Of a DNA stretch of 64,000 nt, positions 35,004 to 40,882 are shown one piece after another. The DNA is from an uncultured Flavobacteriales bacterium (lineage in GTDB: Bacteria; Bacteroidota; Bacteroidia; Flavobacteriales_G; Salibacteraceae), in NCBI GenBank assembly GCA_913057205.1, contig CAJXNO010000002.1, positions 1 through 64,000 on the forward strand, written 5' to 3'. The translations under genes and the position numbers were made by a program. A model generated the notes under the pieces. That model saw nothing but the letters and a program-made list of their open reading frames with translations. It made no database searches and was not told where the DNA came from. Each line of letters opens with the position of its first letter. Position 1 is the first letter of the stretch.

Positions 35004-35545
35004 AGATTGAAAACACAGCTATACTTGGCGTTCACGTGCTTCATTTCTTTCATGCAGGCGATGATCGTGGAATGTTCGTGAAGCCCTATCATGCGCCTAC
35101 TTTGATCCAGCATGGCTTGGTAAGCGATTACAAAGAGAGCTTCTACTCTACCAACCAACGTGGTGTGATCCGTGGGATGCATTTTCAATACCCACCGCAT
35201 GACCACGCTAAGATCGTTTACTGCACATCTGGAAGCTTAACCGACGTTATTCTGGACCTCCGTCAGGGCTCACCTACCTATGGACAACATGTTTGCATTG
35301 AATTGAGCGGGAACAATTACAAGGGAGTTTACATGCCTAGTGGTGTTGCACATGGCTTTGCCGTGCATGAAGACAACACCTGCATGATCTACTTAACATC
35401 CACTCCGCACGCCCCTGAATACGATGGCGGAGTGCACATGGATTCCTTTGGTATGAAATGGCCCTATGATCAACCGATCACCTCTGATCGCGATCAACGA
35501 TTCCCAACACTGGAAGCCCTTGAAAGCCCTTTTATCTATGCTTAA
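35000..35545 (+). CDS. RmlC/RfbC-like sugar 3,5-epimerase family protein
   Basis: A 181-residue cupin. GVIRGMHFQYPPHDHAKIVY holds the catalytic-base His and the following Lys of the RmlC family, DVILDLRQGSPTYGQ and YMPSGVAHGFAVHE are further signatures. Because it is coupled to rfbG by a 4-nt overlap, its substrate is probably a CDP-4-keto-6-deoxyhexose (or its 3-deoxy derivative) rather than the dTDP sugar of canonical RmlC. This would parallel the 5-epimerase of the CDP-ascarylose pathway. Regiochemistry (C3, C5 or both) cannot be read from the sequence. Confidence 0.9.
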   Translation: MKIENTAILGVHVLHFFHAGDDRGMFVKPYHAPTLIQHGLVSDYKESFYSTNQRGVIRGMHFQYPPHDHAKIVYCTSGSLTDVILDLRQGSPTYGQHVCIELSGNNYKGVYMPSGVAHGFAVHEDNTCMIYLTSTPHAPEYDGGVHMDSFGMKWPYDQPITSDRDQRFPTLEALESPFIYA

Positions 35546-36701
35546 GATAATGCACTTTATAATACTGGTATTGTTTACTTTAACTTTAATTAAAGTAAGT
35601 CATGCAGAAGCGCCAACTTTGTCGCCAGAAGCCGAGGTCTCTGTGCTCACTTGCTCGCCTGGCGGTGAGCTTTACTCCCTTTTCGGACACAGCGCCATTC
35701 GCATACATGATCCGGTAAAGCACATCGATGTGGTGTTCAACTACGGCACCTTTAGCTTTGATGAAAACTTCTACTTCAACTTCGCGATGGGGCGGTTGAA
35801 TTACAGCCTATCGATCCAAGGAATGGAGAACTTTCTGCGGGCCTACAAAATAGAAGACAGAAGTGTGGTAGAACAAGTGCTGCGTTTGGAGCCAGAGCAA
35901 AAGCAAAAGGTGGTTGATTATTTAGATTGGAACCACCTGCCAGAGAATCGCGAATACCTTTATGACTTCTTTTATGATAACTGTTCTTCACGGATCCGAT
36001 TTGTCTTAGAACAGGCTTTGCCGGATGCAGATGTCGACTTTCAGGACCTGCAATATGAGTCGAAGCCTAGCTTCCGAGACATGATCGATGAATACTTGAT
36101 CTATCATCCATGGGGCGACTTCGGGATCGATCTAGGGCTTGGACTCCCTTGCGACAAGGTTCCGAGCAGTGATGAGTATGTATTTCTTCCGAATGAGTTG
36201 GAGCGCGCGTTTGATCAGGCCAAGCTTGATGGTGCACCGCTCGTGATGCGGAAGGCTACCATGATCGAAGGATCACCGCTCCGTGCTTCGTTCAGCCTTT
36301 TTGATCCGAGTCCATTGATGTGGCTGTTGCTTGGACTCGTGGTGGTCTTCTCTACCCTAGGCTGGCGCAGAAAGCAGCTCTGGTGGGGAATCGATATGGC
36401 GTTATTCTTGATCATTGGAGCGGTTGGCCTGCTGGTTGCCTTCCTTTGGTTCGTGACCGATCATACGGCAACGGTGAACAACCTCAACATCCTCTGGGCT
36501 TGGCCAACGCACCTGATCGCCATCTTCTTCTTGATGATGCCGCGGGTGCGACGCACCTACATGATGATCTATGGAGGCGTGCTTGTACTTAGCTTATTGA
36601 GTTTTCCTTTTTTACCGCAAGCCTTGCACCTGGCTACGATTCCGTTGATGATCATCGGTATTGTACGCGCGGCATTGTATTGGCGGATTGGAAAGGTATA
36701 G
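35538..36701 (+). CDS. DUF4105 membrane protein
   Basis: The start at 35538 overlaps the previous stop by 8 nt and gives 387 residues with a signal peptide (MHFIILVLFTLTLIKVSHAE). The DUF4105 domain (about 35-190) shows LTCSPGGELYSLFGHSAIRIHD, NYGTFSFDENFYFNFAMGRLNY and the YDFFYDNCSSRIRFVLE motif; the conserved His, Asp, Asn and Cys suggest a cysteine-protease-like fold, though no activity is established. The C-terminal third has four or five membrane helices (about 280-385). It sits between sugar-nucleotide genes and the tandem lipoproteins, so a role in envelope assembly is possible. Confidence 0.9.
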   Translation: MLKIMHFIILVLFTLTLIKVSHAEAPTLSPEAEVSVLTCSPGGELYSLFGHSAIRIHDPVKHIDVVFNYGTFSFDENFYFNFAMGRLNYSLSIQGMENFLRAYKIEDRSVVEQVLRLEPEQKQKVVDYLDWNHLPENREYLYDFFYDNCSSRIRFVLEQALPDADVDFQDLQYESKPSFRDMIDEYLIYHPWGDFGIDLGLGLPCDKVPSSDEYVFLPNELERAFDQAKLDGAPLVMRKATMIEGSPLRASFSLFDPSPLMWLLLGLVVVFSTLGWRRKQLWWGIDMALFLIIGAVGLLVAFLWFVTDHTATVNNLNILWAWPTHLIAIFFLMMPRVRRTYMMIYGGVLVLSLLSFPFLPQALHLATIPLMIIGIVRAALYWRIGKV

Positions 36702-36764: not shown

Positions 36765-36803
36765 ATCAAGTGATTATAGTTTAGCGCTATAAAATCATTT
36801 GAT
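36765..36803. promoter_or_regulatory. Imperfect inverted repeat overlapping promoter of the tandem lipoprotein genes
   Basis: ATCAAGTGATTATAG (36765-36779) is the near reverse complement of 36787-36803; the 7-nt centre plus arm end holds TAGTTTAG (36777-36784), a near-consensus -7 box. The dyad ends 1 nt before the ATG at 36805. It could be an operator or an RNA hairpin hiding the start. Confidence 0.5.
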
Positions 36804-36804
36804 T

Positions 36805-37776
36805 ATGCTACGAAAAATCACACCCTTTAAATCCGTCTTGGCGCTAGCGCTTGTGCTGACCTCATGCCAAGGCGCTCAAGACGTCGTATCTGAAAGCTGG
36901 TTACAGAAGCGAAAACATCGACCAGGATTTCACCTTAACATCGCACAGCTTCAGCGGAACACTTCGAAACCAAGCATCAATGCTCAAGCTGAACAGGGCT
37001 CCATTGCTAAGCTCCCACGAAGAAAAGGAGAACTAGCAATAGCGTCAACAAACCTCAGAGATAGCATCCGTTCTGCAACATGGATGATTGCGGAACATGG
37101 TGAACAAGATCAGTTGCATTCTGCGCCCCATCGAACGTACCTCGAAAAGAATGAAGCACCTAGCCTACAAGCAACAGCAGTGGAGCGAACGGAAGAACTC
37201 GAAGAGCTTGCTCAGCACCAAGAGGTCAACAAGAAAAAGCTCTTGCGCAGCAGCGGCATGCTTGGCCTCGGTTTAATGGCCTTGGTAAGCAGTTCGATTT
37301 TATCCGCTCTTCCTTTTATTCTATCCGTGCTTCTCTCTGTGCTTGGTGCACACATCTCATTGGTAAGCATTGCCTTGCTATCCATTCATTGGATAGAACG
37401 TAAGCGCTTAATGAAGGGATCTATGTTCTACACCGAGCAACGCATAAAGGATTGGACTGATTTCACCGTCTTGATGAAGAAGACACAGCTCGTTGGGACT
37501 ATTCTCAGTGCGGTTCTTGGAGTGGTATCCATTGCATTAACCCTGAGCCCAGCACTCTTCATGTACGGCACTATGGTGAAGTCCATAATATTCCTTTTAG
37601 GATTAGGAACTACGATCGTTACTTTACTTGGAATTAGCGTTGGGAGCAGTGTTTCTCCCTACAGCTTTGAGGCCAAGCGTACTGCACGTCGATTGATCCT
37701 TTTGCCGCTGATTTCGGCTGCAATCGGTATCGGACTTCTTTCGCTTGTTTCTCTTATTCCTCAATTGATCTTCTAA
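36805..37776 (+). CDS. QKRK-motif lipoprotein/membrane protein, paralogue 1
   Basis: Function unknown; first of four tandem paralogues. The ATG at 36805 is preferred over a TTG two codons upstream and gives 323 residues. A lipoprotein signal (VLALALVLTSC, Cys21) is followed by QDVV and, 13 residues after the Cys, QKRKHRPGFHLN (34-45). A variable, polar linker leads to a juxtamembrane motif VERTEELEELAQHQEVNKKKL, then about four to five hydrophobic helices (from LLRSSGMLGLGLMALV to the C-terminal LPLISAAIGIGLLSLVSLIP). A lipid anchor plus helices suggests inner-membrane retention. A dyad and weak promoter box precede it; paralogue 2 follows after 10 nt. Confidence 0.82.
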   Translation: MLRKITPFKSVLALALVLTSCQGAQDVVSESWLQKRKHRPGFHLNIAQLQRNTSKPSINAQAEQGSIAKLPRRKGELAIASTNLRDSIRSATWMIAEHGEQDQLHSAPHRTYLEKNEAPSLQATAVERTEELEELAQHQEVNKKKLLRSSGMLGLGLMALVSSSILSALPFILSVLLSVLGAHISLVSIALLSIHWIERKRLMKGSMFYTEQRIKDWTDFTVLMKKTQLVGTILSAVLGVVSIALTLSPALFMYGTMVKSIIFLLGLGTTIVTLLGISVGSSVSPYSFEAKRTARRLILLPLISAAIGIGLLSLVSLIPQLIF

Positions 37777-37786
37777 GCGTATTGTC

Positions 37787-38764
37787 ATGTCCAGCATCCT
37801 AAAACAAAAGGGCCTGCTCTTCTGGCTGGGGCTGGCCCTCCTCCTCACCTGCAATTCTTGCAAAACTTCAAACGATGTTGTATCGAATGGGTTCTTGCAG
37901 AAGCGGAAATACCGTCCAGGATTTCACTTGAACTGGATCAACTCGAACACTCCAGCACCTTCAGCATCCGGATCATCAAGCGCTTGGAAAAGGAACAATC
38001 TGGTGAACAAAGCTTTACTTGCAGACAGGAAACAGTCAAAGGCCCAACGTATTGAAGCCCAAACACAAAAGCCCATTATGGAGGCGAACCGAGGTGATGG
38101 AGCGAATAACCCTGTTTTATCTCACCGAAAACGAGTACCAAGTAAGGGAGCGGATAGCCTGCCTGATTTTCGTGAAAAGCGAACGGAGGAACTGAAAAAG
38201 ATCAAAGAAGATAAGCGCGAGAACCTCTTATCCATTTTGAACAGTGCATTGATTGTTGCAGCCTCTTTAGCCATTATTATTCATCATATTCTTTCAGCAG
38301 GCATAGATCCAGTACTTGCTTTCTTCGCGATGGTTGCCAGTATTTCATTGCTCATAGGAGCGGTAATGCTCCTCTTATTCATCATTGAGCGCTTCGTCCT
38401 GAATCGCGACCGTATCCTCTTAAGTGAACGCTGGAAAACGCGTTGGAAGTGGTTTGTTCGTATTTCCAGATGGAGCACTACGGTACTCGGTCTTGGTTTT
38501 GTCACGAGCGTTGCATTTCTCGGTCTTTCCTTCATTTTCTTTCCGGATCTAGTGAACGCGTTACTCATCATCGTTAGCTCACTCACCATGTTGACCTTAC
38601 TGGTAGCTTTCATTGGAAGTTTACTAGCCCTACCTGTAATCCATCGAATTGATGAGGTCGGCTCAGATCTAGGCAAGATGGTTGGTATGGCCGGTGTTGT
38701 CTTTGGGATACTTGGTACGGTATCCTTCATTGCAATGTATGTTGCCATATTCACCGCATTTTAG
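37787..38764 (+). CDS. QKRK-motif lipoprotein/membrane protein, paralogue 2
   Basis: 325 residues, same layout as its neighbours: signal MSSILKQKGLLFWLGLALLL, lipidated Cys25 (Cys22 is the alternative), NDVV, then QKRKYRPGFHLN at 38-49, again 13 residues after Cys25. The linker contains the family's EKRTEELKKIKEDKRENLL before the helices. Helix content begins at ILNSALIVAASLAIIIHHIL and ends MAGVVFGILGTVSFIAMYVAIF. It is the most divergent of the four in the juxtamembrane motif. No enzyme motif seen. Co-transcription with paralogue 1 is likely. Confidence 0.82.
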   Translation: MSSILKQKGLLFWLGLALLLTCNSCKTSNDVVSNGFLQKRKYRPGFHLNWINSNTPAPSASGSSSAWKRNNLVNKALLADRKQSKAQRIEAQTQKPIMEANRGDGANNPVLSHRKRVPSKGADSLPDFREKRTEELKKIKEDKRENLLSILNSALIVAASLAIIIHHILSAGIDPVLAFFAMVASISLLIGAVMLLLFIIERFVLNRDRILLSERWKTRWKWFVRISRWSTTVLGLGFVTSVAFLGLSFIFFPDLVNALLIIVSSLTMLTLLVAFIGSLLALPVIHRIDEVGSDLGKMVGMAGVVFGILGTVSFIAMYVAIFTAF

Positions 38765-38888
38765 CCGCGCATGAACCGTCACGGGAACCTCACGCTATCG
38801 AACACATGGAACACATGCGTAAATATTCTTCTGATCACGAAAGAGTCGACCCGAATACCTTTATTTGATAGAACCTACGGAACGACTT

Positions 38889-39887
38889 ATGAAGACTAAA
38901 AATCGGCCTATGCGCTTTTTCCCCTTGCTAACCTTGCTAGTTGTATTGGTCATGAGTGGATGCAAGACCAGCAATGACGTGGTTTCCGACGGACTCTTCC
39001 AGAAGCGGAAACACCGTCCAGGATACCACTTGAATTGGGCACAGCGCTCAAAACACCATCAGGCCGATGTCAAGGAAGAGCGTCGTCAATGGACATCAAC
39101 GGATTCCACGTCCATGGATCCTCAAGACGAACGATCAGGTAGCCGTAAGCTCCAGCCACTCAAACGAATCTTATCTGCGGATACAGGACCACTTCACCCA
39201 AGTGTGCTTTCGCCAAGAAAGCTTAACCCATTGAAAAAGTGGCAAGGAAAATCACTGAGGGAAACAGCAGACGAGCGCAGCGAAGAATTGGAAGAGCTGC
39301 AGGATCACAAGATCCGGAATGAACGCAACCTAAACATCACGGGAATCCTAAGCGCACTCTCGCTTGCTGCTTACATTATATACTACGTAAGTATTTTAAT
39401 GGCCGTGCCAATGGCACCCGCTTTGGGACTGGTGGTCATTCCATTTACGCTGCTCCTGCGCTACACGTTTCCGCTGCTGATCATCTACATCATAGAGCGG
39501 CTTAAGCTGAAGAATGACGAACTGTTCTTTAACGAGAAGCGCATTCGATTCTTTGAAGATACCACCCTTGCGATGAAGCGGGTGCAGCTCCTCACCTTCA
39601 TCATATCGCTGCTGTCAGTGATTGGATTTATACTGGGTTTGCTTTACTTCCCAGCTGCTGCGTTGTTGTCACTACTGACCTTCGGGATATCCATCTTCAT
39701 TCTTGGTTTGGCTTCTTGGATTGGAATTGTGACCGCGCTTGCCGTCAAGCGTTTTTCTCGAGATGCGAAGAGAGCGCTTATCCAACTTATCATCCTGCAA
39801 ATCCTCGGTAATATACTGTTGGTTTTCATGGCCGTTCTATTCCTTTTGCTGCTGTTCGGAGCGCTTACAGGAGGTATTGTCATCTGA
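38889..39887 (+). CDS. QKRK-motif lipoprotein/membrane protein, paralogue 3
   Basis: The ATG at 38889 gives 332 residues; an in-frame TTG at 38865 lies too close to the promoter-like TACCTTTA (38856-38863) and is rejected. Lipobox LVMSGC with Cys25, then TSNDVV and QKRKHRPGYHLN at 38-49. The linker ends DERSEELEELQDHKIRNERNL, followed by about five hydrophobic segments (ITGILSALSLAAYIIYYV, LGLVVIPFTLLL, LLTFIISLLSVIGFILGLL, LLTFGISIFILGLASWIG, LIILQILGNILLVFMAVLFL). It shares its membrane domain most closely with paralogue 4. A 124-bp gap and its own promoter box suggest separate initiation from the first pair. Confidence 0.82.
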   Translation: MKTKNRPMRFFPLLTLLVVLVMSGCKTSNDVVSDGLFQKRKHRPGYHLNWAQRSKHHQADVKEERRQWTSTDSTSMDPQDERSGSRKLQPLKRILSADTGPLHPSVLSPRKLNPLKKWQGKSLRETADERSEELEELQDHKIRNERNLNITGILSALSLAAYIIYYVSILMAVPMAPALGLVVIPFTLLLRYTFPLLIIYIIERLKLKNDELFFNEKRIRFFEDTTLAMKRVQLLTFIISLLSVIGFILGLLYFPAAALLSLLTFGISIFILGLASWIGIVTALAVKRFSRDAKRALIQLIILQILGNILLVFMAVLFLLLLFGALTGGIVI

Positions 39888-40882
39888 TGTGGGTGCGTAG
39901 GTCTTTCCACCCCTTGCTGCTGGTTGCAGCCCTGTGCACACTTGTTTTTACTGGTTGCAAACACCAGCAAGATGTAGTTGGAAATGGCATCCTACAAAAG
40001 CGCAAACACCGGCCGGGATTGCACCTCAACCTGAAGCGGATCCATGAGAAGAAGCTTGCCCATATTGATGATGAAAAGGAAAAGCTCATTCAGCGAGATA
40101 GCAGCAGCCTGATTGGCAAGGCAGTGCGACAACAAGAAAGGGGCCAACCGGACCATAAAGCCTTGGTCGCAGATCGATCAAGCGAGGAAAGCTTATCATA
40201 TGATGTAACAGCCTCTCGCAGTGGCGCGGTGAAAGGGAACCTACCAAGCATTAGAAAATCAGCAGATGAGCGAACGGAAACCTTGGAGGAACTTCGTGAG
40301 CACCAAGAAAGAAACAAGCGAAACCTAAAGATAACCGGCATCTTGTTTTCTACGCCTTTGATCGCGTGGATCCTTTTCAACATTGTAGCACTCTTAGGCA
40401 TTCCGATTGCACCCATTTTAGGAATCGTATTTCTTGTATGCTTAGTTCTCCTGCGCTACACCATCCCACTCTTCATCATCTACTTGGTCGAGTACTTTGT
40501 ACTGAAGAAGGGAAACATCTTCTTTAATGACCATAGGATTAAGGTGTTCGAAGGAATCAGTGTTTGGGCGAAACGCATCCAACTCATCGCCTTTGTGGTT
40601 ATGATACTATCCGCAGTCGGAATTGTAGCTGGACTATTGTTCTTCCTACCGCTTACCATCTGGTCTTTCGTTGCTCTTTCTGTTGCTTACGTGTTGCTTT
40701 TGCTGACATCTTGGGTGGGCATTGTTGCGAGTTTGGCCTCTCGGCGTTATTCAACGGAATCGGCCAAGGCGTTATTTCAACTCATCGCCCTACAAATCAC
40801 TTCTGGGCTCTTAGCGATTGTATTTCTTATCACCGCTGTGTTCCTGATCATTTTAGGTGTGCTCGCCGCATCGATCGTATGA
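39887..40882 (+). CDS. QKRK-motif lipoprotein/membrane protein, paralogue 4
   Basis: 331 residues; its ATG overlaps the stop of paralogue 3 by one base (TGATG), so the two are translationally linked. Lipobox LVFTGC with Cys24, QQDVV, QKRKHRPGLHLN at 37-48 (again Cys+13). The juxtamembrane motif is DERTETLEELREHQERNKRNLKI. The membrane part follows paralogue 3 closely (TPLIAWILFNIVALLGIPIAP, YTIPLFIIYLVEYFVLKKGNIFFND, FVALSVAYVLLLLTSWVGIVASLASRRYS). The shared FFNDxRIKxFE loop between helices is conserved in 3 and 4 and, more loosely, in 1. Function unknown. Confidence 0.82.
   Translation: MWVRRSFHPLLLVAALCTLVFTGCKHQQDVVGNGILQKRKHRPGLHLNLKRIHEKKLAHIDDEKEKLIQRDSSSLIGKAVRQQERGQPDHKALVADRSSEESLSYDVTASRSGAVKGNLPSIRKSADERTETLEELREHQERNKRNLKITGILFSTPLIAWILFNIVALLGIPIAPILGIVFLVCLVLLRYTIPLFIIYLVEYFVLKKGNIFFNDHRIKVFEGISVWAKRIQLIAFVVMILSAVGIVAGLLFFLPLTIWSFVALSVAYVLLLLTSWVGIVASLASRRYSTESAKALFQLIALQITSGLLAIVFLITAVFLIILGVLAASIV

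Follow-up and report, generated by a model that had tools for sequence, protein, structure and literature searches.

A conserved KRKYxxG box, lying close behind the lipidated cysteine, marks lipoproteins with transmembrane helices, in which the linker between box and helices is constrained in length and not in sequence; the box is thus a candidate sorting or tethering signal that can be tested directly. The proteins that bear it form a family that is undescribed but widespread in Bacteroidia and whose role may be to tie together or position cell-envelope components, and many lipoproteins annotated as 'DUF4190', 'TM2' or 'hypothetical' would become recognisable as its members. Four of them are encoded in tandem in the window, a stretch of 64,000 nucleotides from an uncultured Flavobacteriales bacterium (contig CAJXNO010000002.1, forward strand). 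The relevant features are as follows.

35466..36701, forward strand: Lnb (formerly DUF4105), a neighbour outside the family, with Pfam Lnb_N and 5TMH_Lnb
36805..37776, forward strand: copy 1, lipoprotein of 323 aa with Cys21, QKRKHRPGFHLN at 36904-36939, a linker and five predicted C-terminal helices
37787..38764, forward strand: copy 2, lipoprotein of 325 aa with Cys25 and QKRKYRPGFHLN at 37898-37933
38889..39887, forward strand: copy 3, lipoprotein of 332 aa with QKRKHRPGYHLN at 39000-39035
39887..40882, forward strand: copy 4, lipoprotein of 331 aa with QKRKHRPGLHLN at 39995-40030
36904..36939, forward strand: KRKYxxG box of copy 1, 13 residues past the lipobox Cys (36865-36867)
40250..40876, forward strand: C-terminal membrane domain of copy 4, five helices (residues 122-330, pLDDT ~90)
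C51:118-825, on another contig: fifth paralogue L005, with the same N-terminus and a different, shorter C-terminal membrane domain

The four encoded lipoproteins are of similar size (323-332 residues). From copy 1 to copy 4, the lipobox Cys is found at 36865, 37859, 38961 and 39956 and the codon of the motif glutamine at 36904, 37898, 39000 and 39995, a distance of exactly 39 bases (13 residues) in 4/4 copies. The open reading frames and codon positions therefore agree with the sequence-only reading, which had described four tandem lipoproteins, each with a lipobox, DVV and QKRK[HY]RPGxHLN at +13. DVV, QKRK, RPG and HLN are invariant across the copies and the linker between the two ends is hypervariable, so that the pattern of constant ends around a variable linker was also recovered. 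Copy 4, which is closest to copy 3 (40% identity), starts with a one-base overlap with the stop of the latter, and an alternative upstream TTG start of copy 3, at 38865, is likewise open. Using a pattern script, a lipobox (basic n-region, hydrophobic h-region, [LVI][ASTVI][GAS]C) was found in the four copies and in 108 relatives; lipoboxes and helices were assigned throughout by simple scripts, and lipidation is predicted.

No Pfam or NCBIfam model reached its cut-off on the four copies, and DUF4190, TM2 and Pmp3 gave no match above the gathering score in any of them. The N-terminal module lies outside the models of both collections, in agreement with the earlier remark that no known family name fits. 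The helical part of copy 1 showed a sub-threshold match to the SseC translocator family (20.3 bits for a cut-off of 30.2), which had no counterpart in copies 2-4 and was above the gathering score in no copy. AlphaFold2 was run on copy 4, the sole window-type box protein folded, with an alignment of 14 sequences. The model has a disordered linker (pLDDT <50 over residues 69-116) followed by five long C-terminal helices with pLDDT ~90 (122-170, 175-207, 215-252, 254-285 and 290-330), which is the architecture that had been proposed; the first long helix begins with the ERTEELEEL stretch. Foldseek searches of PDB and BFVD gave no significant match to the five-helix domain, and VIA-align Z scores of up to 11.6 are within the range of generic helical bundles.

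A 27-base motif pattern matched five times in the 2.8 Mb genome, in the four genes and the fifth paralogue, and the reversed-pattern control gave 0 matches, indicating that the motif is not due to chance. Two other, weak hits in this genome, apart from the five, were dismissed, one being antisense to another gene (C22:40225) and the other having a stop inside (C43:17159). Since L005 combines the shared N-terminus with another membrane domain, the N-terminus behaves as a module. The four copies group in a single clade (96/98 support), as expected from the repeated duplication assumed earlier, and genus-mates carry just one copy at this locus, between Lnb and RmlD/RfbH-like genes. The array therefore arose by lineage-specific tandem duplication. 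Tandem copies were found elsewhere as well (L142, L145, L148, L155, L156 and L157).

A profile of the N-terminal module had matches in 22/35 genomes of the taxonomic family and 62/295 of the class (E <= 0.01, the weakest being doubtful). To avoid the circularity of a profile search, we also scanned 197 Bacteroidia genomes with the motif only, as DNA (KR-[basic or polar]-[YH]-x-x-G-[YF]-[HY]), which led to ~160 matches versus ~80 for the reversed pattern, as counted from the table. Reading of 110 match-holding loci gave 111 frames, and in 41 of these the motif was followed by 150 residues or more. A lipobox Cys lay within 20 residues upstream in 38 of these 41, and all 38 box lipoproteins had C-terminal hydrophobic helices. 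The three others were L208, with an atypical lipobox (DSC), the unrelated L166, and L198 (G079:C16), in which the lipobox Cys is gone and the signal peptide, box and helices are kept. Among the loci read, at least 42/197 genomes had a family member. When a different class of the phylum was scanned in this way, 5 matches were obtained, none of them in a lipoprotein, versus 47 for the reversed controls. This pattern scan is a better negative control than the phylum-wide profile search, in which few candidates were scored per genome, so that a low count there is not evidence of absence. Within the genomes sampled, the family is seen only in the class Bacteroidia, and its class-wide occurrence runs counter to the statement that polytopic lipoproteins are rare. 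A typical flavobacterial box lipoprotein (L015) was present in a MAG labelled Saccharospirillaceae, on a contig that is probably misbinned. A phage origin was rejected, the phage collections (viral_contigs and phages) having no family match. A literature search with the motif returned only three chance string matches and no description of it.

The pooled set comprised 108 distinct lipoproteins with helices and a KR[KR][YH]xxG[YFW][HY] box 4-15 residues past the Cys. Their consensus is [ILFV][QET]KR[KR][YH]xxG[YFW][HY][VLI], in which the invariance of K, R and G is largely fixed by the search pattern. The commonest Cys-to-KR distance is 14, that of the DVV subfamily (equivalent to +13 for Q), and the others are mainly 4, 7, 8, 10 and 12. 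The Cys+13 spacing, which had been set beforehand as a test, thus holds within the DVV subfamily and does not extend to the other relatives, with their Cys-to-KR range of 4-15. Among 71 lipoproteins encoded in larger loci, helices were predicted in 37/38 with the box versus 10/33 without it, a comparison that bears on architecture and not on frequency, these loci having been picked for box presence. Four of the ten helical lipoproteins without the box had a variant of it, such as NRKYTKGY in L147, and most of the others had segments that look weak or spurious; nearly all convincing polytopic lipoproteins in the box-chosen loci bear the box or a variant.

The distance from box to first helix was 116.3 ± 8.7 residues in 94/108 proteins. 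It was independent of the Cys-to-box spacing and similar for modules of 2, 3 and 5 helices, whereas module length varied widely (CV 0.52) and linker alignments scored barely above shuffled controls (0.147 versus 0.136). The modules themselves are swapped between members: in many relatives they match Pmp3 (PF01679), DUF4190 (PF13828), TM2 (PF05154) or DUF5670 (PF18919), the remainder being unclassified, and unlike the plain proteins of these families they sit after a lipobox, the box and a linker of fixed length. Most of the longer linkers contain an inserted beta domain with two conserved Cys and a predicted Sm/Hfq-like fold (Foldseek best E 0.009, probability 1.00, TMt ~0.7; YgdR-type lipoproteins were also similar). 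This insert with its Cys pair was seen in L142 (6816-7550), L061, L066, L053, L073, L097, L103, L201, L203 and L126, and the linker has no Cys in 81/108 members. A conserved Cys pair is as expected on the oxidising, periplasmic side. One box lipoprotein, L151 (7731-8954), has no helices and consists of a Pro/Thr-rich linker of ~200 residues and a beta-rich C-terminus without a Pfam family match; judged by eye, and as a single case, this C-terminus looks like an outer-membrane barrel.

In seven genomes of the genus, the gene for Lnb, a recently described lipoprotein N-acyltransferase of Bacteroides (PMC13103446), immediately precedes that for a box lipoprotein. Like the box proteins, Lnb has a helical C-terminal domain. 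It differs from them in being an enzyme, and homology between its five-helix domain and the C-terminal domain of the box proteins was rejected (hhalign probability 0.6%, no profile similarity). Lnb was also rejected as a universal partner, since co-occurrence was absent class-wide (5/42 box-positive versus 27/155 other genomes, own tally). L122 was read through as one operon, whose syntenic genes are common to L014, L121 and L128. The proposed link to CDP-sugar or LPS genes did not extend beyond these four close relatives, the other contexts being unrelated, and such a role was rejected since neighbours are conserved only within the genus. Outside it, no neighbour recurred convincingly; those named by eye were FKBP (twice), DUF2752 (in a few loci), a holin-like membrane protein (three times, in related genomes) and housekeeping genes.

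Bacteroidota lipoprotein sorting is poorly understood, although a signal for outer-membrane export is already known, and a recognition or sorting role of the box is plausible. Taken together, our results suggest that the box proteins are most likely doubly anchored in the envelope. We tentatively favour, at somewhat less than even probability, a tether that would span the periplasm, its lipid sitting in the outer membrane and its helices in the inner one. The N-terminus, processed by signal peptidase II and lipidated, would be fixed in a membrane and the box would lie at the membrane surface, right behind the lipid; some 116 presumably unstructured residues would then lead to a small hydrophobic helical module anchoring the C-terminus in the inner membrane. 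This reading is favoured because length is the only conserved property of the linker, because the lipoprotein export signal (LES) is absent, and because phages provide a precedent. The LES of Bacteroidetes, K-(D/E)2 or Q-A-(D/E)2 (PMC5080379), resembles the box in being short, charged and located just after the lipidated Cys, but the box is of opposite charge, longer, usually farther from this residue and coupled to transmembrane modules. This acidic signal for surface export was found in 0/108 box lipoproteins, so that a lipid in the outer membrane would face the periplasm. Phage u-spanins demonstrate that an outer-membrane lipid and an inner-membrane helix are possible in a single chain (PMC6139136). 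As in these unimolecular spanins (T1 gp11 type), the box proteins have an N-terminal lipobox, a linker, here putatively periplasmic, and a C-terminal transmembrane anchor in one chain, and the lack of linker Cys in most members parallels u-spanins, which have no periplasmic Cys. Unlike u-spanins, they are chromosomal, in contexts without lysis genes, class-wide, equipped with several helices instead of one and with a conserved box; the likeness is one of layout, with no sequence similarity shown and a membrane placement that we infer. L151 also argues for a tether, joining the N-terminal module to a long linker and a barrel-like, beta-rich C-terminus. It is possible, though doubtful, that such single-chain tethers make up a large family in Bacteroidia, in which the linker is selected as a ruler, for its length and irrespective of sequence, the box is a new sorting signal next to the lipid, and the inner-membrane modules are exchangeable.

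Several observations fit this tether poorly. Transport by Lol of a lipid on a chain held by inner-membrane helices is mechanically awkward, and two-component spanins range from 62 to 300 residues (PMC6139136), so spanning does not call for a constant linker length. In 89/106 proteins, the K/R residues concentrate at the linker-facing end of the helices. With a periplasmic linker this would violate the positive-inside rule, and none of the models considered explains it; it may reflect either an unusual topology, a charge function at the periplasmic face or hairpin insertion of the modules. A near-equal rival, itself a minority possibility, is that both ends stay in the inner membrane and that the box is a Bacteroidia Lol-avoidance signal, which would block extraction by LolCDE, with contacts of the basic residues to phospholipid head groups. 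In Pseudomonas, MexA is retained by Lys+3/Ser+4. The tight coupling of the box to lipid and helices, with a variant in four of the ten exceptions, and its position 4-15 residues past the lipidated Cys speak for retention; the LolA/LolB paper has no mention of a Bacteroidota retention signal, and neither a retention nor a dual-anchoring signal for Bacteroidota was found described in the literature searched. Retention leaves the constant linker length unexplained, however, does not need the G-[YFW]-[HY] that follows the basic cluster, and does not predict that the exported L198 should have kept its box despite the lost Cys.

Alternatively, a protein partner (envelope machine or chaperone) might recognise lipid and box together, the box being its docking tag and the helical modules the cargo. 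Near-invariance of the box in the 108 proteins (K, R and G being largely fixed by the search) while the cargo modules are swapped points in this direction, but we consider it unlikely since no partner gene travels along, neighbours being conserved only within the genus and Lnb co-occurrence being absent class-wide. Binding of the basic, exposed box to LPS core or another polyanion, in the service of CDP-sugar or O-antigen biosynthesis, had been raised by the sequence-only reading and is consistent with the position of the gene between Lnb and RmlD/RfbH-like genes in the genus. It is now very improbable: sugar genes recur only there, the neighbours of members elsewhere are FKBP, DUF2752, holin-like or housekeeping genes, and the loci read suggest that members occur in strains without such polysaccharide loci. 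It appears just as improbable that the modules are secreted hydrophobic hairpins put into other membranes, in a translocator- or toxin-like manner. Linker-side charge would fit insertion from that side and copy 1 has its sub-threshold SseC match, but the other three copies lack this match, no immunity-like partner genes were noted, and Pmp3, DUF4190 and TM2, which the modules of relatives match, are ordinary small membrane domains.

Arrays of four members, as in the window, were also observed at L147 (G263:C60, 2976-6120) and L148 (G287:C32, 3629-7204). At L147 the box has drifted to the forms NRKYTKGYF, SRKYTKGYF and TRKYTKGYF.
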